64,000 bases of DNA from a virus, in IMG/VR virus record IMGVR_UViG_3300045999_010033, positions 64,001-128,000 of that record. One strand, written 5' to 3'. Made by a program: the position numbers and the translations under genes. Every line of letters begins with the position of its first letter. The stretch's first letter is position 1. The notes beneath the pieces were generated by a model. It saw only the letters and a list, made by a program, of their open reading frames with translations. It made no database searches and was not told the DNA's origin. Positions 2,549 through 49,322 of this stretch are shown piece by piece.

Positions 2549-3559
2549 TTATTTTGTAATTGGTTGCGGGCCTCCTGCTGCACCGGTATCTGCTGCTTTT
2601 GCACGGATACCCATATCCTCTGCGAATTTGTTTGAACGTTTAACCAATGGAACAATAGGTTCATCAATTACCCTAACGTTCATAGAAATAGGTTTATCTG
2701 GATGTGCCGCGTTATGTGCAACAACCGCTGCCCAACGATGGTGTCCATCCAATACATACCCATCATTCGATATGTAAATAGGTGCAGTTATCTTAGCGTA
2801 TGCAGGATGGTCTGGGTTGTCAAGTACTTTACTCATTCCTGCCACTTTCACTCCAACCAATTCAGATTGTGTTGCTTTCAATCTGTCAGGTGGAACCGCC
2901 ATAGGTTTAGATACTTTGATACCTTTTTTGTTCAACATTTCTTTGAAAAACTCTTCGGTATCTGCTTCACCCGATTCATCCTTTGGAAGTTTATCAGCGG
3001 GCGAACCTGCTACCGGTGTTCCTTTAAATTGGGGCATATCTGCTCTTGGAATACCTTTGTTATCATCACAATAAAGGTTTGTTCCGGGAATACTCACCTG
3101 ACATAGATTGAAGTTTGGTGCTTTTTCTCCTTTCTCTTTTGCTTGCTTACCTAGCTCTGCAAGTTTATCTATGATGGTAGATATCTGCTGCCTTTCTATA
3201 TTAGAAACATCATCCAATCCTTTTTTAGATGTGTCTATTCCTGGTATCAATGATTTCAATTTTGTATCATCAATACCAGTTGTAGAAGTTTTTTCCGCAG
3301 AGCTCTTGAAATCAATATTTGAAGATTTTCCTGCAGGCGTTTGTGGAGTCGCAGTAGTATTTACTTTTGTAGTTTTATCTTTTTTGGAAGGTAATTTGCC
3401 GCCGTTTTTTTCTTTGGCAGTTTCTACTTCATCCGGAGTAGGTTTGTCATGAATATCTGGATTGAACGTTTTAACTTTATAAACGTTTCCTGTTTTCTTA
3501 TTTTTTACAATATCATCCTCATTGATGATATTGTAAAGCTTTCTTTCAATTTTATTCAT
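2549..3559 (-). CDS. Protein with C-terminal ParB-like domain
   Basis: A 336-residue protein. The first half is low-complexity and lysine/threonine/proline rich. The C-terminal third carries VLDGHHRWAAV (residues about 270-279), the signature of ParB/sulfiredoxin-like nucleotide-binding folds, after a strand (PIYISNDGY) in the expected place. Such domains bind CTP or ATP or act as small nucleases, and occur in phage proteins as well as in plasmid partition. No parA partner or parS-like repeat was seen nearby, so partition is not implied. Its start codon shares one base with the stop of the upstream 39-residue gene. Confidence 0.7.
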   Translation of the reverse strand: MNKIERKLYNIINEDDIVKNKKTGNVYKVKTFNPDIHDKPTPDEVETAKEKNGGKLPSKKDKTTKVNTTATPQTPAGKSSNIDFKSSAEKTSTTGIDDTKLKSLIPGIDTSKKGLDDVSNIERQQISTIIDKLAELGKQAKEKGEKAPNFNLCQVSIPGTNLYCDDNKGIPRADMPQFKGTPVAGSPADKLPKDESGEADTEEFFKEMLNKKGIKVSKPMAVPPDRLKATQSELVGVKVAGMSKVLDNPDHPAYAKITAPIYISNDGYVLDGHHRWAAVVAHNAAHPDKPISMNVRVIDEPIVPLVKRSNKFAEDMGIRAKAADTGAAGGPQPITK

Positions 3560-3678
3560 TACCCTTGCCCTCTGTAGTTTTTTTCTTTACGATTGTGCTT
3601 ATTAAAACTCTTTTGAGATTTTCCACGTTTTCTTTTACCGAATGAAATTTTCCTACTATCAGATGAAACTTTTGCCAT
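3559..3678 (-). CDS. Very basic 39-residue protein
   Basis: The minus strand from an ATG at 3678 to a TAA at 3559-3561 encodes 39 residues (MAKVSSDSRKISFGKRKRGK then SQKSFNKHNRKEKNYRGQG). It fits exactly between its neighbours, sharing a TAATG junction on both sides, which strongly suggests translation. About 40 percent of the residues are Lys or Arg, so it probably binds nucleic acid or a capsid-internal partner. Confidence 0.6.
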   Translation of the reverse strand: MAKVSSDSRKISFGKRKRGKSQKSFNKHNRKEKNYRGQG

Positions 3679-3890
3679 TATTTTGTTACTTTTTTAGTTG
3701 AACGTTTTTTAGGCACTTCCGTTGTAACTGCATCCGTTATTTGTGTTTCTACTACTTCTTTTTTAGGAGCCTTTACAATCTTTAGTGGCGTTTCTTTAGC
3801 CGCTTCAAGCACTGCTTTATCAATAGTAATTGGTAACTCTTTGTGTTGCTGCTTTTTGAATAAATTTTTAATAAACGAAAATAGTCCCAT
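3678..3890 (-). CDS. Small lysine-rich protein with amphipathic N-terminus
   Basis: A 70-residue protein. The N-terminus MGLLFSFIKNLFKKQ-like segment (as written MGLFSFIKNLFKK) is an amphipathic, possibly membrane-attached helix. The rest is Lys/Thr/Val rich and ends KKRSTKKVTK. No family is recognised. It lies downstream of the lipoprotein gene with a 34-base AT-rich gap that contains the sequence ATATTTATAT. Confidence 0.5.
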   Translation of the reverse strand: MGLFSFIKNLFKKQQHKELPITIDKAVLEAAKETPLKIVKAPKKEVVETQITDAVTTEVPKKRSTKKVTK

Positions 3891-3924: not shown

Positions 3925-5127
3925 TTAAAATCCTTTATTTGGAAAGCGAGTCCATCCATTTATCCAAATAGGTTTTGAAAATATTTCCATTTCGGATTTT
4001 GTATAAACGACCTCTTTACTTCCTTGTGAAATTGATTTGGTCTTCATTTCAGATGCCGTAAATAAGGCCGAAGTTGACCTGAAATTCAATAGTGGATCGT
4101 ATGCTTGAACTTCATTGTTTTCAAATTTAGAAACACCATCCTTATAAGATTGTGCCGTTTCATTTGATTCAATACTAAAACCACCTTTTTGGTATCCCAA
4201 AATTTTTGAATTGGTTATAGTGAATCGAGTTGCTCTTCTCCATCTTAATCCTAAATTATGGTTTGGTAGGGCGGTTGCATCAAATGGACCGACTAATATC
4301 ATACCTATTAATTTAGGATGTGTAAATGGTTGTGCGGATGAACCCGTTCCATCGTTATCACATTCCACACCATTTCCGGCATCACCATTATCTACAAATT
4401 TTGGGTCTCTTTTTGCTACACCACTTTCAATTGTACCACAATATCCGAAATCAAAATCAAAATCATCATCGGCGGTTGCATATGCATATAGGTTTTTACA
4501 ATTAACAGTACCACCGAAAAATTCAAAAGCATCATCGTTTGCGTAAACCGTTTGCACATTTTCGATGATAGTCCCACTACCTACACCGCCGAGAGTCAAT
4601 CCATTTATTTCCGAATTGGGCATTGCTGCAATACCGGCGTATTCAATTCGGACATACTTTAGAATCCCACTATTGTCTGCATCATTCGTTCCACCATACG
4701 GTCTTCCGATTCCGCCTTCGATTGTAGGTTCAGTAGAGCGGTTTGTTGTTGCTTTACCTAAAATTACAACGCCACCCCAATCGCCGGGTGCTCTTTCTCC
4801 TACGGGTTTGCCCGAAGTGAATACAATCGGTTTTTGGGCCGTTCCTTCTGCTATGATTTGTGCGCCCCTTTCAACAATCAATGCACCTTTTTCTGCTATA
4901 TCGGATACTATGGTAGTACCTGGTTGAATAACCAGTTTTGCTCCATCGGTCACATACACATATCCTTTTAGAGTCCAAGTTTTGTCGGATGTCAATGTAA
5001 TCGTGGTATTGATATTTCCATTCAATGTGGTCGATGTAGGAACATTTGGGGGTGGGTCTCCTCCTCCCAATTCTTTTTTACATCCAAATAATACGATAAT
5101 ACAAATACCTAAAAGTAAATTTTTCAT
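3925..5127 (-). CDS. Outer-membrane lipoprotein with beta-helix-like body, partner of the TonB receptor
   Basis: A 400-residue protein with a lipoprotein signal (IIVLFGC, lipidated Cys at residue 16, followed by KKELGGGDPPP). The body has repeated short strands typical of a right-handed beta-helix, such as GAKLVIQPGTTI, GALIVERGAQI and PGDWGGVVILGKA. This lipoprotein type is common in Bacteroidetes genomes. The ATG overlaps the stop of the upstream TonB-dependent receptor (ATGA), so the two are co-translated, like other receptor/lipoprotein pairs where the lipoprotein caps the receptor and helps capture substrate. Location is expected to be the outer membrane of the infected host. The substrate cannot be told from sequence. 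Confidence 0.8.
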   Translation of the reverse strand: MKNLLLGICIIVLFGCKKELGGGDPPPNVPTSTTLNGNINTTITLTSDKTWTLKGYVYVTDGAKLVIQPGTTIVSDIAEKGALIVERGAQIIAEGTAQKPIVFTSGKPVGERAPGDWGGVVILGKATTNRSTEPTIEGGIGRPYGGTNDADNSGILKYVRIEYAGIAAMPNSEINGLTLGGVGSGTIIENVQTVYANDDAFEFFGGTVNCKNLYAYATADDDFDFDFGYCGTIESGVAKRDPKFVDNGDAGNGVECDNDGTGSSAQPFTHPKLIGMILVGPFDATALPNHNLGLRWRRATRFTITNSKILGYQKGGFSIESNETAQSYKDGVSKFENNEVQAYDPLLNFRSTSALFTASEMKTKSISQGSKEVVYTKSEMEIFSKPIWINGWTRFPNKGF

Positions 5128-7376
5128 AATTTCAAATTTAATGTCAATGAAACGGTTTGTTCGTTGTTTGTTTTTATTAGATTCCTTTTTGTTTGTAACT
5201 TTTGATAATAAACCGATGGTTGTGCTAATATATCACCTATTGCCAATTTAATATCACCTCGTTTGATTTTGCGAAGAAACACTACATCAATAACATCCCT
5301 AGCGTTTTCAAAAATATCTGCGTATCCCTGAAATCCTACTGCTGATATTCTATCTCCAACTCGATTGTAAGATATGTTAAGTGTGTTTTGTTTTCTTTTA
5401 ATGTTTACGCCTGAGTTTATTACATAGTTTGATTGTCCCTGCAATTGTCTTTTTATTTTATTCACATTTACTTCCGAGTTCATAAGAGATGCATTTGTGT
5501 ACACATCTAACCAATCTTTTATTTTCTTCCGAACCTCAACCTCTACTCCAAAAAGTGTAGCCCGATTAGGGTTGGTGTATGTAAGTAAAAGATTAGAAGG
5601 AACTGAACCATCTGCTACAATTTGTTCAATTGGTTTTAGAAAATATTTACCAAATGCCGAAACGGATACACTTTGATTATCTGATATGTAATTCTCCCAT
5701 TTAAGGTCAATGTTATAGATGTCCGATTTTTCTAAATTTGAATTACCCAATATTTGTGCATTCCTTACAAAATCATAATAAGCAAAATTGGCTACCTCTC
5801 TAAATTCAGGCCTGGCTAATGTTTTACTTACCGAAAACCTATACTTTGTTTTCTCTAAATTGTAAGAAAGGTTTACCGATGGGAGTAGGTCTAAATAGTT
5901 TCTATCTACAGTTATCGGTGTACCACTAAAATCGGATGTATTTACTTTGAATGTATTATATTCGGTTCTTAGACCGGTATTGAGTTTCCATTTACCCCAA
6001 GTATTATCATACATCGCATATCCACTTGCTAAGTCAAAATCGGAATTGTATTTATCGGTATTGTTTGTAATTTCATCCAACATATCGGAAGCAGTATATC
6101 TAAATACTCTGGCTTTAAATTCTCTAAACTTTTTAGTATATCCTGCTCCTACTTTAACCCTACCAAAATCTTTATTAAGATTTCCATTAAACGCGTTTTC
6201 ATCCATTATAGACCAAAACCGATATGTATCTCTCCAAGCGATAGTGTATGGTGTATTTACTCCTAATGATTTAGTTATAGGATTTACTCTATAATCCGGT
6301 TGCTCTCTGAATGTAAAATTATACCCTAAATTAAAGTCCCAATCTTTTACCTTTCCATCTAATTGAGAATTGATGATGAATGAGTTAATATGATTTGAAG
6401 CATTACTCAATACATTTTGTACATTATCATAATTATTGCCCACACGCGTAAGATATGAATCATCTTTTTGATAATTCAAAAGGGTCTTCCAACTATAACG
6501 ATTTTTTCCCAAATAAGTTAAATTCAGCAATCCATTGGCTTGAAGCCTTTTTGTGTATAAGGTATCTTTATAATCATATGCCAACTCCGTTGATGATTGG
6601 TAATCCGTTCTTTCAATATAGTTTAACCCATAGGAGTTTCTAATCGTTGAACTCAATATACCATTCCACTTACCTCGCTTATATCCGGCCGAAAAAGAAC
6701 CATTTAAGTTAGAAGGTGAAGTGAATCCTTTTGCAACTGGTGATTCTATCAACTTTGTGAATGCCCTTCTATCTCCATTTGAGCTAGTTCTGAATGCATA
6801 CGTGGATGGAAACCTTTGTGGGAACTCCGTTTCTCTTACTAAAGAGAATGATTTGAATGATGAAACCATTCCCAATCCACTACCTAATGATAGGTTAATG
6901 CTATTATCAAATACATCCTTTGTTGTAATTTGCACCAATCCTCCGGTCCAATCTCCAGGCAAATTAGCCGCAGCCGATTTGGCTATGATAATATTATCAA
7001 CCAACGACGTTGGAATAATATCAAACGAAAACGCCCTTCTATCGGGTTCGGTAGATGGCAGTAATGTTTTATTTAACATTGCGGAATTATATCTGTCTGC
7101 CAATCCCCTTACTAAAACAAACTTATCATTTTGTACCGTTACACCTGAAATTCTTTTTAATGCATCACTAACCGTCCTATCGGGTGTTTTCTTAATAAAT
7201 TCAATTGATAATCCATCTGATACTACATTTGAATTACGAATTGTTTTTATAACGGATATTTCTGTCGTTTTTTGTCCGGTAGTTTTAACTGATATTTCGG
7301 ATAGTGTTTTGTTGAAAACGGTATCCTGACATATTACTCCAATTGGTAGTAGTAGAAATAAAATTATGGATTTCAT
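5124..7376 (-). CDS. TonB-dependent outer-membrane receptor
   Basis: A 750-residue protein: signal peptide (residues 1-16, ending VICQ), then a plug domain with SVSDALKRISGV-type sequence (here TVSDALKRISGVTV) and the receptor motif FVLVRGLADRYNSAMLN, then LPGDWTGGLVQITTKD. About 550 residues of alternating beta-strands follow, ending VSLTLNLKL. This is the layout of TonB-dependent transporters without an N-terminal carboxypeptidase-like domain. These proteins import large scarce solutes (siderophores, cobalamin, glycans) using TonB energy, and they are also common phage receptors. It is full length, with no frameshift seen. It overlaps the following lipoprotein gene by 4 bases. A phage-borne copy is unusual. 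Confidence 0.9.
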   Translation of the reverse strand: MKSIILFLLLPIGVICQDTVFNKTLSEISVKTTGQKTTEISVIKTIRNSNVVSDGLSIEFIKKTPDRTVSDALKRISGVTVQNDKFVLVRGLADRYNSAMLNKTLLPSTEPDRRAFSFDIIPTSLVDNIIIAKSAAANLPGDWTGGLVQITTKDVFDNSINLSLGSGLGMVSSFKSFSLVRETEFPQRFPSTYAFRTSSNGDRRAFTKLIESPVAKGFTSPSNLNGSFSAGYKRGKWNGILSSTIRNSYGLNYIERTDYQSSTELAYDYKDTLYTKRLQANGLLNLTYLGKNRYSWKTLLNYQKDDSYLTRVGNNYDNVQNVLSNASNHINSFIINSQLDGKVKDWDFNLGYNFTFREQPDYRVNPITKSLGVNTPYTIAWRDTYRFWSIMDENAFNGNLNKDFGRVKVGAGYTKKFREFKARVFRYTASDMLDEITNNTDKYNSDFDLASGYAMYDNTWGKWKLNTGLRTEYNTFKVNTSDFSGTPITVDRNYLDLLPSVNLSYNLEKTKYRFSVSKTLARPEFREVANFAYYDFVRNAQILGNSNLEKSDIYNIDLKWENYISDNQSVSVSAFGKYFLKPIEQIVADGSVPSNLLLTYTNPNRATLFGVEVEVRKKIKDWLDVYTNASLMNSEVNVNKIKRQLQGQSNYVINSGVNIKRKQNTLNISYNRVGDRISAVGFQGYADIFENARDVIDVVFLRKIKRGDIKLAIGDILAQPSVYYQKLQTKRNLIKTNNEQTVSLTLNLKL

Positions 7377-7389
7377 AAATTGTTTTTGA

Positions 7390-7641
7390 TTAATCCTCTC
7401 CGTATAGTGAAAATCTTTTTACCGGTTTTTCAACTTCTTGCTCCATTACAACTTCAACTGTTCCTTTACGAGCATCCATATAAAAACGTGTTTCACCAGT
7501 TTGTTGATAGTGTCCTTCCAATGCATCTGTTAATGTTGGATAAACGGAAGAAGATTGGGCAGCATTTACTGCTACCCAACGGTCACCCGGCGGAACTCTT
7601 TTAAGGACAACTCGTTTTTCTTCTTTGATTTCTTTTTCCAT
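7390..7641 (-). CDS. Small hypothetical protein
   Basis: An 83-residue charged protein (MEKEIKEEKRVVLKRVPPGD) whose middle reads RWVAVNAAQSSSVYPTLTDALEGHY, followed by two beta-strands. There is no recognised family. It lies between the DUF4494-like gene (2 bases upstream) and the TonB receptor (13 bases downstream), in the unit that starts at the promoter-like site 7870-7899. Confidence 0.55.
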   Translation of the reverse strand: MEKEIKEEKRVVLKRVPPGDRWVAVNAAQSSSVYPTLTDALEGHYQQTGETRFYMDARKGTVEVVMEQEVEKPVKRFSLYGED

Positions 7642-7642
7642 A

Positions 7643-7849
7643 TCAGATTACTTCAAGTATTTTAGTGTCCGTTACTTTGGTTACTTCAAACTCATTTCTC
7701 ACACCCTCATCTCTGAACTTCTTTACAAGCTTTGCTTCTGCTTCCGTACAAGACATTGCATCAACGAGGTAAAGTTCTTTTACTTTTTTAATCTTTCCTT
7801 TTGCATCTTCGGTTTCCATTGCTACCGTAACTTGATAAAATTTTGTCAT
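7643..7849 (-). CDS. DUF4494-like protein
   Basis: A 68-residue protein whose pattern, YQVTVAMETEDAKGKIKKVK then ELYLVDAMSCTEAEAKLVKK, matches my recollection of DUF4494, a short family found mainly in Bacteroidetes and their phages. Function is unknown. It is the first gene downstream of the promoter-like site at 7870-7899 and is one of the better host-range indicators in the window. Confidence 0.7.
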   Translation of the reverse strand: MTKFYQVTVAMETEDAKGKIKKVKELYLVDAMSCTEAEAKLVKKFRDEGVRNEFEVTKVTDTKILEVI

Positions 7850-7869
7850 AACTTTTAATTTTGTTTACA

Positions 7870-7899
7870 CAATATACGAAATTTATTTAAGTAATCCAA
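7870..7899 (-). promoter_or_regulatory. Promoter-like site upstream of the receptor/lipoprotein unit
   Basis: On the minus strand, TTG at 7897-7899 is followed after 20 bases by TATATTG at 7870-7876, with TTTCG directly before the -7 box as at 2516. It overlaps the last codons of the kinase gene and would start the unit DUF4494, 83-residue protein, TonB receptor, lipoprotein. Confidence 0.55.
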
Positions 7900-8425
7900 T
7901 TATTTTTTTAATGGAATCCGCATCAACCTTTACTGTATGATATGGTATTGAGTTAGCCTGCAGCATTGTTAGTATCTCTTTATCAATACGCAAAGAATCT
8001 TCCATACTTTGAAACCTTCCATTTGGGTCATAAAATTCAGCATTACGTTCTAAGTATATGTTTATAGAATCATAATGCATATGAAGGTCTACAATAAATT
8101 CATCAAACTTGTTGGAGTAAAATATGGCAGGATATTCAGGCACCGCATCATATCTTCCTTTATAAATGAGTCCAAATAGTATTGGAGAGTCTACAATTAC
8201 ATAATCAACTTGTCCGTAAAGTCTTGCTATGTTTCGATGTTGATTTGCGGTAATATATAATTGGTCTTTGATTGCATGAGTATTGTGTTCCCATGCTACA
8301 AGCTTTGGATATTCGTATGGCATTTCAACGTTATATCCCAATCGTTTCATTTCATAAAAAAGACCAGCCGCTTGGGTTGATTTTCCTGCACCTGGTCCTG
8401 AAAATAGATTTATTATCTTTGTCAT
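7883..8425 (-). CDS. P-loop nucleoside/nucleotide kinase-like ATPase
   Basis: A 180-residue protein with an N-terminal Walker A loop (FSGPGAGKST, residues about 8-17), a Walker B-like strand (VDYVIVDSPILFG), a NIYLERN segment typical of the lid region of small-molecule kinases, and RIDKEIL. The order resembles thymidylate or deoxynucleoside kinases and the NadR kinase domain. The likely reaction is ATP-dependent phosphorylation of a small molecule, probably a nucleoside or nucleotide. It lies immediately downstream of the terminator that ends the Oar-like receptor gene, with the DUF4494 unit following. Confidence 0.65.
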   Translation of the reverse strand: MTKIINLFSGPGAGKSTQAAGLFYEMKRLGYNVEMPYEYPKLVAWEHNTHAIKDQLYITANQHRNIARLYGQVDYVIVDSPILFGLIYKGRYDAVPEYPAIFYSNKFDEFIVDLHMHYDSINIYLERNAEFYDPNGRFQSMEDSLRIDKEILTMLQANSIPYHTVKVDADSIKKIIGLLK

Positions 8426-8430
8426 AAAAT

Positions 8431-8462
8431 AAAAAAAGGGAGAGAGTGTTTAACTCCCTCCC
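8431..8462 (-). terminator. Intrinsic terminator after the Oar-like receptor gene
   Basis: On the minus strand the sequence folds into a 9-base-pair stem, GGGAGGGAG pairing with CTCTCTCCC (one G-T pair), with a 7-base loop and a run of seven T directly after it. It begins 12 bases past the receptor stop codon. It is the only textbook rho-independent terminator I found in the window. Confidence 0.9.
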
Positions 8463-8473
8463 ATTTTATTAGG

Positions 8474-11400
8474 TTATTTACCAAAAATGTATCGTACACC
8501 CAATTGTGCTGTCCACACATCAAATACGGATGAGTTTCTTTGATAAGTATCACGTGCGAGAATTGTTGAACCATCAGGGTTTCTTTGAGTAGAAAGCCTA
8601 TATGTTGGTTCTCCAGCTGCGTTATAACTTACAAAGTTCAATAGAGCCGGTGCGGTTGCTCTTTGAGAAACACCCCATTTATCATTCATTAGATTTCCTG
8701 CGTTAAGAATATCAAACCTAACTTGGAATGTATTCTTTTGGTCTTTTACTTTTACATAAAAGTCCTGCATCACAGAGAAATCGAACCTATGAAGGAATGG
8801 AAGTACAAATCCGTTTCTTTCAGCGTATTGTCCACGACGACCACTAAGATATGGGTCTTGCAAAATGAATGCATCAAATGCTGTCTGTTGTTCTACTTCG
8901 GTGTAAGTCTTACTACCAACGGTGAGTGGTGCGAACTTAACTTCTGCTGCTGCTTTTGGTACATATACCAATTCATTATCACGAACCCTGTCACCATTAA
9001 GGTCACCGGCTACAAAGTAAGAGAATGGATTAGATTTTGCACCTACATAACCCAATGTTACGGTCGTTGCTCCACCAAACTTTCCACCATACTCTTTACG
9101 ATATCCGATAAGACCTACGATTCTATGTGGAAGGTTATTATCTGAAAGAGATAGTCCGAGGTTGTTATTACCATTTACGGAACGAGCACTTTGCCAGCTA
9201 CCACTTGCGATAGAACCTGCACTCATGTAATCTCTTGCTTCAGAAAGAGTATATGCTACTGAACCCCAAAGACCTTTAGCGTAAGGCTTTTCCAACTTAA
9301 CAATCATTGCTTTATGGTAAGGGCCATCCTTTGATGTCAATACCGCTGCCATTGATACGTTATCGTTGATACGAGTACCAGGGTCATTGTTGGCAAACTT
9401 TGCTCTATTATCAGAGCCACTCAAAGTTCCAACGGGTGATTCCAAATTAGCGTTGTAGTAATGAACTGCGTTAAGTGATTTATTATAAAATACTTCTGCA
9501 GATGCTACGAGTCCGAACCAAGGCAATTTTTGATCAACTGCCAAGTTACTACGCCATACTTGCGGAAACTTATAGTTCGGGTCGGTGAATGCCAAGTCAA
9601 ATGTAGTAGGAAGCGTTGGTGTTATCGGAGTGAAATACTGCGCCGGGTTGGCGGTGAATCCATAACCTGCAGCTGCTGCTCCACTTACATCAATAAATCC
9701 AGTGAGTACACCATTGTTTCCAACCTGATTAGAGATGAATACATACGGAGGGCGACCGGTGAAGATACCAGTACCACCACGAACTTGTGTGGCTTTCTTT
9801 CCTTCAACATCCCAGTTGAAACCGAACCGAGGCTCCCATAGGATTTGAGTTTCAGGCATTACCCCGGTATTGAATTTTTCACCATTAGCGAATGCCATAG
9901 CAGATACTGCTTTGTTTTCAAGTGCCGTATTTCCGATACCGATAACTGCTGCACGAAGACCAAAAGTTAATTTAAGATCTTTGCGGATATCCCACGCATC
10001 TTGTCCATATACATCAAATCGTGTGGTTTCCAAAACTTGCATTGGTTCTGCTCCACCCGATAGAGCGGAATATCTCATTTGAAAACGAGCAGGTGCAAGT
10101 GTTGAAGGTTTGCCACCATTTGCCAACGATTGATTTGCTGCGTTGTAAAAATCTGCCAAGCTATTAAAGATGTAAACACCATTAGAAGCGGGATAGAATA
10201 GATTATTAGATTTATATGCTTCGAAATTTACACCACCAGTAAAGGTATGTTTGTCAGCATATTTCGTAAGGTTGTTCGTAATGTGGAATGTACCATAGTT
10301 CAATTTGTTACCCGGAGTGAATGGGTCGAATCCTACGGAAGTGTAGGTTGCTGAACCTTCACGAATATCGATTGTGGGGAACATTTGAGAAAGATATGCA
10401 CGGTCTTCAATTTGCCTATCATATCCTACGATGAAATTGTTATGGAGTGTATTTGTGAACTTTGAGTTAAGTTCAACCACTGCTGAACGAGTGTTATCCA
10501 TAATAATATAACCACTATTCTTAAACGACATTGCGTTGAATTGTGTGGTTCGGTTTCCTGCACCAGCTGATTGAGAGTTTGAAATGTTAATCTCTGCTGA
10601 TGAATTATGATGTACATAACGTGCAGTCAATTTGTGTTTTGGATTAATATTCCAGTCAACCCTTACAAGAAACTTATTAGATTCGTTTGTATTAGAGTAA
10701 CCTTCCCAGGCGCCGGTTTCGTAATTGAATTTAGATTTCATAAATTCCGAAAGGGTCTTCATATCGGAATACTTAACACGACTTACTTGCGAACCTGTGA
10801 GTGGTGATCCTTCGGAAATCCAAGTGGTGCCGGGTTCGGTTCTTTCAAGTGTTTCATAGTTACCAAAGATAAAAAGTTTGTTCTTAATGATTGGTGCTCC
10901 CATACGGAATCCCCAAACCTTTTCATCAAACTTTGCCGCCGTTACAGGTACTCCATATGCACTATTTCCAACAAATTTGGAAGAGTTGTCACGGGTGAAT
11001 CCATATACCGAACCTTCGATATTGTTAGTACCACTACGCGTTACTGCGTTAATACCTGCACCAGTGAATCCGCTTTGACGAACATCATAGGGTGCTACGT
11101 TTACTTGCAATTGCTCAATGGCATCCAATGAAATTGCAGATGCTCCAGTTCTACCACCCGCTTGTGCAGATGAACCCAAACCGAAGTTATTATTGAATTG
11201 TGAACCATCAATCGTAAAGTTATTCATACGAGAGTCTTGCGCTCCGAATGATGCTCCATTACCAAATGGTGTGTATTTTGTTACACCATCAATAGTCCTT
11301 GCACCCGTAATGGGTACGCTTTGCAATTCTCTCCTTCCAAATTGTTGGGAGGCACCGGTTCTATCTTTTGAAAAGATTGGATTTCTTGTTCCCGTCACAA

Positions 11401-11749
11401 CGATTTCATTGAGTGAAGATGCGACATCAATGAGAACAAAATCAACGTTTGTGGTAAGACCCAATTGTGTGTTTACATCCTTAATCTCACCTTTGTTAAA
11501 TCCAACAAATGAAGCATGAATTGTGTATGGTCCTCCGACTCTTGCAGCGGGAATTACATACACACCGGATTTGTTAGTGTTAGTAAAGTATTCAGTACCG
11601 GTAGGTGTGTGTGTTACATGGACACTTGCACCACTTAATACTTCACCTTTTGAGTTTTTTACAACACCGGAAATCGTTGATGTTGTAATTTGGCTAAAAC
11701 CCAACAAACTTGCTGCTACTAAAAGTAGCGTCATCATTGTTTTTTTCAT
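8474..11749 (-). CDS. Oar-like TonB-dependent outer-membrane protein
   Basis: A 1091-residue protein: signal peptide (residues 1-19, LLGFSQ end), a carboxypeptidase-regulatory-like domain (about 22-108, ISGVVKNSKGEVLSGASVHV), then NEIVVTGTRNP, a plug (RMNNFTIDGSQFNNNFGLG and QLQVNVAPYDVRQSGFTGAG) and a long beta-barrel ending QLGVRYIFGK. This is the order of Oar/TonB-dependent receptors abundant in Bacteroidetes. It is full length. It has its own promoter-like site (11799-11829) and a strong terminator, unlike the surrounding phage operons. Sampled 60-base lines are about 40-43 percent G+C against 15-18 percent in parts of the glycan block, which suggests recent acquisition from a host. The role could be nutrient uptake, adhesion or receptor replacement. 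Confidence 0.9.
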   Translation of the reverse strand: MKKTMMTLLLVAASLLGFSQITTSTISGVVKNSKGEVLSGASVHVTHTPTGTEYFTNTNKSGVYVIPAARVGGPYTIHASFVGFNKGEIKDVNTQLGLTTNVDFVLIDVASSLNEIVVTGTRNPIFSKDRTGASQQFGRRELQSVPITGARTIDGVTKYTPFGNGASFGAQDSRMNNFTIDGSQFNNNFGLGSSAQAGGRTGASAISLDAIEQLQVNVAPYDVRQSGFTGAGINAVTRSGTNNIEGSVYGFTRDNSSKFVGNSAYGVPVTAAKFDEKVWGFRMGAPIIKNKLFIFGNYETLERTEPGTTWISEGSPLTGSQVSRVKYSDMKTLSEFMKSKFNYETGAWEGYSNTNESNKFLVRVDWNINPKHKLTARYVHHNSSAEINISNSQSAGAGNRTTQFNAMSFKNSGYIIMDNTRSAVVELNSKFTNTLHNNFIVGYDRQIEDRAYLSQMFPTIDIREGSATYTSVGFDPFTPGNKLNYGTFHITNNLTKYADKHTFTGGVNFEAYKSNNLFYPASNGVYIFNSLADFYNAANQSLANGGKPSTLAPARFQMRYSALSGGAEPMQVLETTRFDVYGQDAWDIRKDLKLTFGLRAAVIGIGNTALENKAVSAMAFANGEKFNTGVMPETQILWEPRFGFNWDVEGKKATQVRGGTGIFTGRPPYVFISNQVGNNGVLTGFIDVSGAAAAGYGFTANPAQYFTPITPTLPTTFDLAFTDPNYKFPQVWRSNLAVDQKLPWFGLVASAEVFYNKSLNAVHYYNANLESPVGTLSGSDNRAKFANNDPGTRINDNVSMAAVLTSKDGPYHKAMIVKLEKPYAKGLWGSVAYTLSEARDYMSAGSIASGSWQSARSVNGNNNLGLSLSDNNLPHRIVGLIGYRKEYGGKFGGATTVTLGYVGAKSNPFSYFVAGDLNGDRVRDNELVYVPKAAAEVKFAPLTVGSKTYTEVEQQTAFDAFILQDPYLSGRRGQYAERNGFVLPFLHRFDFSVMQDFYVKVKDQKNTFQVRFDILNAGNLMNDKWGVSQRATAPALLNFVSYNAAGEPTYRLSTQRNPDGSTILARDTYQRNSSVFDVWTAQLGVRYIFGK

Positions 11750-46576: not shown

Positions 46577-47459
<883 letters not shown>

Positions 47460-49322
47460 TTACATAGTTGTAACAACACACGCGCCACCTGCACATGCTG
47501 CTTCCCCATTTAAATCCGTATTATCATCTAATTCAATAATCTGACGTAAATCAATAGAGCTCAATGTTTGCAATAATCTTTCATATTCTTCTTTAGTACA
47601 ATCTTCAAAAGGAGCTTGAATATAGCTACCACCATCATATGGTAAAACTGATAAACCATTGTACGCATCTTTGTTTTCCCACATCCATTCTCCAACTGCT
47701 TTCCATTCATGCTCTCTGATTGATACCGTTGCAGATACATTGTGCGTGTTATTACCAGTTCGATGTCCTGGTTTAATCCATTCATTATGGACGCGTTTTA
47801 CTCTTTCCAATAGTTGAATTGGAGATTCGGTTCTAAATATTGCGGTTTCAGGTGCCTTTTGTGGAATTGAAATTACTGCAGTATCGTGTGGGCGGAAATA
47901 TTCATCTTCAATTAATTCGGGATGGTTCAATAGTAGGTATTGATAAATTGCTTCATTTTTACCCACTCTCACTCTACGAATATAATAATCATTGTGCCAA
48001 GCATGAATACCTGATGATGTTCCTAATGTCAATGATGTAGTTCCTGCAGGTTTAACTGTCGTGGTTCTTGCCGAGTGATTTATTCCTAACAAATCTGCTA
48101 TTCTAGCATTTTCATCTTTTACAACCTTTGCGGCCTCTTTCATATTAAATTTTAAAACAGCTCCGCTGCCAATTCCTGTCATAGATACACCAATAAGCGC
48201 ATCTTTTTCTGTCGTTCTTTGCCAAATTGGACGAAGGTAGTGGAAATCAGTGTAGCCGGCTTGTAGTGTTCCAATAAACGCGGCAGCCTTAACTCGTTCA
48301 TTTAACTCTTCTTGCGTTTGAACATCCGATACATTTACTTCACAAAGGTTACAAAATTGGAAAGGTCTAAGAGCGATTTCACAACAAGGGTTTGTCCCCC
48401 AATCCTTATCGTTACTTAAATAAATACCCGGCTCACCTGCTCCACTTGCTTCAATACGTTTCCACAAATCCATAAAGTATTCCTTTGTGATTTTGTGTCT
48501 CATTAAAACTGCTGAATTGTTTGCACGTCCACGTTGTGAATTTTGTTCCCACCATGCACCACTTTTACAACTAATCATTTCATCATCAGTCGCAGAAAAC
48601 AACGAAATCAATGCGGCTCTACGAATGCCACCTGCCAATACTGCATCTGCAATATGACAAACTATATCATGCACTTCTATGGGTCTGAGTTTATCTCCAT
48701 CATTTTTGGCATCGAGAATGCCTTCTAATTTAATTAAGCATTCTTTTAGTGGTTGAGGGCCGGGGGCTTTACCACCTGAAGTAATTAATCTTGCACCTTT
48801 TGGACGAATATCTCTAAAATCAAATAGAGGTTTACTACCACCGAAAAAGTATGCTTTAACTAATATAGATACTGCATCTGCCCATCCTTCAATGGAATCA
48901 CCGATAAGAAATCTTCTAGTCTTATCCGGATTTGGTTTTCTGATTTCTGGAAGTTGATCTACATGGTGTTTTTGAACTGAGTAACCTACTCCGGTCCCAC
49001 CTAATAGTAAGAACATGATTTCTGAAAATACTCGGTAATCATCAACCGGTGCATACGCACAATTATAAATGCGATTAGGACTTATTTCAATTGGCTTTCC
49101 TGCAAATTGCATAGAACGCATTGATGGTAAAACTTTTTTATCATACACAAATTTATAAGTAGAACGTATTTCAGATTCTAATTGTGGATATTTTTTAATG
49201 TGCATATCCATGTTGCGTGTAACCAATTCTTCCCAAGTTTCTCTGCGGGAAAATTCAGGAATGTATTTGGCGTATTTCATATACACCGTAATATCCGATA
49301 AAATTTGTGTTGAGATATCCAT
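47460..49322 (-). CDS. Adenosylcobalamin-dependent (class II) ribonucleotide reductase
   Basis: A 620-residue protein. RIYNCAYAPVDDYRVFSEIM (first active-site Cys), LLGGTGVGYSVQKHHVDQLP, NPCCEIALRPFQFCNLCEVN (thiyl-radical Cys and Glu), VKPAGTTSLTLGTSSGIHAW and a C-terminal CAGGACVVTTM (CxxxxC reductant pair) match monomeric B12-dependent ribonucleoside-triphosphate reductases. There is no ATP-cone and no NrdB partner. At 620 residues it is shorter than the Lactobacillus type (739). It makes deoxynucleotides from host ribonucleotides and needs adenosylcobalamin from the host. Thioredoxin, its usual reductant, is encoded 0.9 kb downstream. Confidence 0.92.
   Translation of the reverse strand: MDISTQILSDITVYMKYAKYIPEFSRRETWEELVTRNMDMHIKKYPQLESEIRSTYKFVYDKKVLPSMRSMQFAGKPIEISPNRIYNCAYAPVDDYRVFSEIMFLLLGGTGVGYSVQKHHVDQLPEIRKPNPDKTRRFLIGDSIEGWADAVSILVKAYFFGGSKPLFDFRDIRPKGARLITSGGKAPGPQPLKECLIKLEGILDAKNDGDKLRPIEVHDIVCHIADAVLAGGIRRAALISLFSATDDEMISCKSGAWWEQNSQRGRANNSAVLMRHKITKEYFMDLWKRIEASGAGEPGIYLSNDKDWGTNPCCEIALRPFQFCNLCEVNVSDVQTQEELNERVKAAAFIGTLQAGYTDFHYLRPIWQRTTEKDALIGVSMTGIGSGAVLKFNMKEAAKVVKDENARIADLLGINHSARTTTVKPAGTTSLTLGTSSGIHAWHNDYYIRRVRVGKNEAIYQYLLLNHPELIEDEYFRPHDTAVISIPQKAPETAIFRTESPIQLLERVKRVHNEWIKPGHRTGNNTHNVSATVSIREHEWKAVGEWMWENKDAYNGLSVLPYDGGSYIQAPFEDCTKEEYERLLQTLSSIDLRQIIELDDNTDLNGEAACAGGACVVTTM

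Follow-up and report, generated by a model that had tools for sequence, protein, structure and literature searches.

A TonB-dependent receptor and beta-helix lipoprotein carried by phages as a probable phosphorus-import module for Bacteroidota hosts

The window analysed here is a 64,000-bp stretch (bases 64001-128000) of the 221,095-bp virus record IMGVR_UViG_3300045999_010033 and carries, on the minus strand, a gene for a TonB-dependent receptor (TBDR) of 750 aa (5124..7376) followed by a gene for an outer-membrane lipoprotein of 400 aa (3925..5127), with the receptor stop and the lipoprotein start sharing the four bases ATGA (5124..5127, minus strand). The two reading frames and their overlap are as given in a preliminary description of the window, which was also right in placing the pair in a real phage: both genes are co-oriented with phage genes of the record, and because the record encodes a terminase (G000:181477-182073), a tail sheath (G000:134334-134792), a DNA polymerase and PhoH (46577-47335 in the window, minus strand), it derives from a contractile-tailed phage.

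The receptor comprises a signal peptide, the TonB-box-like sequence LSEISV, a plug and a beta-barrel. Two domain models, PF07715 (Plug) and PF14905 (OMP_b-brl_3), score above their cut-offs in it, and TIGR01782 scores below its own. Structure prediction (pLDDT 81) gives a barrel filled by a plug, and the top solved matches are TonB-dependent transporters such as PhuR, FecA and BtuB. The receptors of related phages (loci L002-L092) fall into two size classes split by an N-terminal CarboxypepD_reg-like domain (PF13715), which is absent from the window receptor and the ~750-aa class, is retained in the ~825-aa class and in bacterial relatives, and has changed status about four times along the phage receptor tree. 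The strict TonB-box pattern LxE[VIF]x[VI] occurs in 55 of 73 phage receptors, that of the window included, with degenerate forms in most others. The lipoprotein carries a signal peptide together with the lipobox LFGC, which is followed by KKELGG; a Cx[KR][DE] motif at this position is conserved in 64 of 82 lipoproteins and resembles the surface-export signal of Bacteroidota lipoproteins. Its model is a right-handed beta-helix (pLDDT 89) with a fold similar to that of polysaccharide lyases. Domain-profile searches found no SusD family match, searches of PHROGs and NCBIfam returned zero matches, and a lipoprotein profile had no match among PDB sequences; the protein is homologous to bacterial lipoproteins, with identity of up to 60%.

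The pair lies between conserved phage genes, all on the minus strand. Upstream is a backbone gene of 83 aa (7390..7641; 65-69% identical in four relatives), and downstream are a small gene of 70 aa (3678..3890) and a gene of 336 aa (2549..3559; phrog_2859, 69-74% identity across four relatives). An AAA_28/thymidylate-kinase-like gene (7883-8425) and a small gene (7643-7849), together spanning 7643..8425, form the start of the transcription unit in which the pair now lies. Just upstream, a terminator-like hairpin (8438..8462, minus strand) sets this unit apart from a second, Oar-like TBDR of 1091 aa (8474-11749, minus strand; PF13620 and PF25183) that is unrelated to the receptor of the pair. 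Hairpin and second receptor are both missing from the preliminary description. The Oar-like receptor has 81 relatives in viral contigs, most of them 70-76% identical and many in large phages, and seems to belong to the backbone of this group of phages. Gene order (14105, 13791, 13076, 12378, 11831, the Oar-like receptor, 7643/7390, 3678, 2549, 2298) is largely kept in related phages, and what varies is the site between 7390 and 3678/2549: it holds the pair in the window, is empty in the relative G363, and is filled by cupin-, nucleotidyltransferase- or ferredoxin-like genes in G362, G364 and the L081 contig. The pair is found at another location in both G363 and the L081 contig, and two of 21 other long related records have it. 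Because the pair sits at differing places, and the site is empty or otherwise filled in relatives, we regard the pair as mobile accessory cargo. As a side observation, genes for IscU/IscA-like iron-sulphur assembly proteins, GroEL-like and ferredoxin-like proteins occur within or close to this cargo region in related phages (L415 13030-13769; L417 9045-10664; L418 11641-13290; L416 11664-11972).

Scanning the IMG/VR viral contigs with patterns from the two window proteins yielded 83 distinct contigs, and in 77 of these receptor and lipoprotein genes are adjacent (both complete in 64). Of the 77 phage pairs, 74 have the exact 4-bp overlap, which none of the bacterial pairs has; these are mostly 15-200 bp apart. 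A terminase and/or a sheath was found, with those two models alone, in half of the 50 longest records. Among the 40 commonest gene families of the phage loci, only thymidylate synthase is shared with bacterial loci besides the pair itself, and none of the other phosphate genes sought (pit, DUF47, pstS, phoU, phoBR, porin O/P) is present in the fetched phage loci. A quick tree of 90 receptors groups all 48 receptors of this phage set in a single clade, which has full SH-aLRT support and sits on a long stem; because the set was retrieved with patterns from the window proteins, other captures that resemble bacterial versions more closely would escape it. Both phage proteins have been kept functional, as median dN/dS between close phage pairs is 0.10 for the receptor and 0.09 for the lipoprotein.

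These data also bear on the concern, raised in the preliminary description, that bacterial DNA might have been joined onto a phage contig by misassembly or that the pair might be absent from all related phages. The GC content of the pair segment is slightly above that of the neighbouring phage DNA, and the two junctions of the pair in the window were not seen in any other contig. Against this stand the phage-only clade, the phage-specific overlap, the conserved backbone flanks with a site that is empty or otherwise filled in relatives, the occurrence of the pair in contigs with terminase or sheath, and the result of the same type of scan over 84,980 species genomes, which gave no cellular match above 37% identity. 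Misassembly is refuted for the phage pair family, and for the window we consider it exceedingly improbable.

A second phage lineage has a comparable pair. The 634,780-bp uncultured phage LR745206 encodes a receptor and a beta-helix lipoprotein (L142, LR745206.1 62559-94751, reversed) that branch among bacterial sequences, and because of this grouping the pair was probably captured separately. Short faecal records annotated as 'Bacteriophage sp.' (MT838075, MT837092) were left out as possible bacterial fragments. Among the papers searched there was no account of such a phage-borne pair, in line with the statement in the preliminary description that it knew of no established case in a lytic phage, and nothing relevant on phage TonB receptors.

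The bacterial relatives provide the clue to the substrate. In 297 sampled Bacteroidota genomes, a lipoprotein homologue occurs in 200 and a receptor homologue in 223, and in the fetched bacterial loci the two genes lie side by side, repeatedly in the company of phosphate genes: PhoU-PhoB-PhoR above NCBIfam cut-offs (L129), Pit-DUF47-porin O/P of the OprO/P type (L234, among the nearest relatives), DUF47-Pit (L244), PhoB-PhoU-PstS-type binding protein (L238), and PhoB/PhoR near the pair (L245, L248, L249). A phosphorus-related gene is no more than four genes away in 24 of 39 and in 7 of 20 bacterial loci, counts in which 'PhoB' matches include any similar response regulator. In flavobacterial loci the order glycosyltransferase-PhoR-PhoB-TBDR-lipoprotein, and the domains, are as published for Fjoh_0541-0546 of Flavobacterium johnsoniae (compared by description). 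The phoBR cluster of F. johnsoniae holds Fjoh_0545, a TonB-dependent transporter, and Fjoh_0546, the pectin-lyase-like lipoprotein FII (Lidbury et al. 2020, PMC8115612). Pi depletion induced both strongly, with fold-change values of 8.0 for the transporter and 9.9 for the lipoprotein (Table 1), and neither was induced when N or Fe was limiting; the authors named the pair PUSIV and predicted a role in organic phosphorus use (PMC8115612).

The window pair is a relative of this PUSIV-type receptor/FII pair by fold, partner and homology, and its lipoprotein is related to the Pi-inducible FII lipoprotein family. Both systems combine a plug and a Bacteroidota barrel in the receptor (PF07715 and PF14905 in the window protein, as in Fjoh_0545) with an adjacent downstream gene for a beta-helix (IPR011050) lipoprotein (PMC8115612). 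The phage copies differ in being virus-encoded, in their 4-bp overlap, in forming their own clade, in having no phoBR and in the large fraction without the CarboxypepD_reg-like domain; because the window receptor lacks this domain, it is a shortened PUSIV relative and not a textbook member.

The preliminary description had proposed nutrient import as one possible role, which is the best-supported one, and cobalamin as the nutrient; given the Pho-linked relatives and the beta-helix lipoprotein, the nutrient is most probably phosphorus. Uptake of cobalamin for the phage reductase, of iron or of a glycan has several points in its favour, in that TBDRs import many ligands, the lipoprotein fold recalls polysaccharide lyases, the barrel matches FecA/PhuR-type receptors and a B. 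theta B12 transporter (a likeness of shared fold), and the phage ribonucleotide reductase (47460-49322, minus strand) indeed matches the B12-dependent (class II) insertion domain PF21995. Nothing ties the pair to B12, however, and the Pho neighbourhoods of the bacterial relatives, the induction of the F. johnsoniae pair by Pi depletion only (PMC8115612), the beta-helix lipoprotein and an arrangement other than SusC/SusD are at odds with such substrates. With no linked gene for any of them, we dropped cobalamin, iron and glycan as first choice and consider import of another nutrient quite improbable.

The promoters provide a further link to phosphate. PUSIV-type bacterial pairs bear the same promoter motif as many phage pairs, namely tandem 11-bp repeats with the consensus TTAACATTnnn. 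Training a matrix on 20 bacterial pair promoters and applying it to phage promoters gave, in a first scoring, a median of 5.2 for pair promoters, as against -4.1 for 877 upstream regions from elsewhere in the phages. For 29 non-redundant phage promoters (receptors below 90% identity) the median was 5.3, as compared to -4.6 for 274 intergenic controls (p=7.7e-12, a value that assumes more independence than these related phages provide), and about one third of these promoters do not exceed the 95th percentile of the controls. The phage signal has its optimum at 11-bp spacing. Each of four bacterial genomes has 3-7 sites for the pattern TAACATTnnnnTAACATT with one mismatch allowed, as compared to 2-4 for a reversed-pattern control; because this is not many more than in the control, it is the location of the sites that counts. 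Among them are pair promoters in three of the four genomes and DUF47-Pit operons in two, and further sites lie at a PlcP-like phosphoesterase gene with a glycosyltransferase gene and at a diacylglycerol-kinase-type gene. The 11-bp period and the TTAA core fit known Pho boxes, such as the TTAACA repeat of Bacillus. The cyanobacterial Pho box has been given as PyTTAAPyPyT/A (quoted in PMC10976474); our literature search on a Bacteroidota Pho box found nothing relevant. From these sequence patterns, we propose that the tandem motif is probably the Bacteroidota Pho box.

The candidate box is absent before the pair of the window and its upstream genes, and before the LR745206 pair. It is also mostly missing from phage promoters of the Oar-like receptor (4 of 49 above the 99th percentile of the controls), and we therefore dropped the idea that this receptor is part of the same Pho system.

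Altogether, these observations support a model whereby the phage pair is a phosphorus-acquisition module captured from bacteria, mostly under control of host PhoB, that supplies the infected cell, a reading of the genomic evidence that we consider likely. In the model, the lipoprotein would reside at the outer membrane, with probable surface exposure, and bind or present phosphate or a phosphorus-containing compound, which the receptor would then import in a TonB-driven manner. Made during infection, the pair may thus supply phosphorus for phage DNA synthesis while host genes are shut down. In most pair-carrying phages, the tandem 11-bp box would place the pair under host PhoB, so that it should be made in a phosphate-starved host. 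In the window phage, the pair appears to have moved into another operon with loss of the box; because it now lies behind the phage genes at 7390-8425, the phage itself has probably taken over control, with expression on its own schedule. We also think it reasonably probable that phosphorus import by TonB-dependent systems is a recurrent cargo of Bacteroidota phages, wired to PhoB via the Pho box, captured at least twice and maintained under purifying selection.

The preliminary description had also suggested that a phage-made surface pair might displace or cover a protein used by competing phages, thereby causing superinfection exclusion. TBDRs commonly serve as phage receptors, and the Lc porin of phage PA-2 and the T5 lipoprotein Llp, which blocks FhuA, are precedents. 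Receptor swapping or masking leaves unexplained, however, why the promoters have a Pho box, why the bacterial relatives are Pho-linked, why both partners are kept together in nearly all contigs, and why most receptors have a TonB-box-like motif and dN/dS is about 0.1 over the whole proteins. It is less likely than phosphorus import, and on balance we regard it as unlikely.

The phosphorus-import model has parallels in other phages. Cyanophage pstS and other phosphorus genes have a Pho box that lets host PhoBR switch them on in starved cells (PMC10976474), and the phage family described here, if not the window copy, has in common with them a phage-borne, here probable, function in phosphorus acquisition behind a Pho box, in this case a candidate one. 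While the pstS product is a periplasmic phosphate-binding protein, the pair of Bacteroidota phages encodes a putative outer-membrane TonB-dependent importer and a lipoprotein. Thus, if the model is correct, a phage would contribute import at the outer membrane, whereas pstS, the phage phosphorus-uptake gene already described, acts inside the cell envelope, and the hijacking of the phosphate-starvation response would extend from cyanophages to phages of Bacteroidota, a major phylum of freshwater and marine heterotrophs.

Among bacterial systems, SusCD and the Pi-regulated PusCD likewise join a TonB-dependent transporter to a lipoprotein partner; the phage lipoprotein is a beta-helix and not SusD-like. 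In B12 uptake by B. thetaiotaomicron, the partner of BtuB is BtuG, a beta-propeller. The BtuB-BtuG system (8bmx) is similar to the phage pair in combining a TBDR with a surface lipoprotein, and the barrels align with a TM of about 0.6-0.7, whereas the phage partner is a beta-helix and the bacterial neighbourhoods are of Pho type, with no cobalamin genes seen. The Lc porin and Llp are phage products in the host outer membrane as well, with neither TonB import nor a Pho link. The phage pairs also offer a testable model of the Bacteroidota Pho box and a handle on the poorly understood FII lipoprotein family.

Finally, a further conserved element, close to TA(A/G)TTATTGGGGAACTAAC, lies ~15-35 nt ahead of the start codon in many phage pairs (such as those of L081, L003 and L016) and is perhaps a promoter -7 element and leader.
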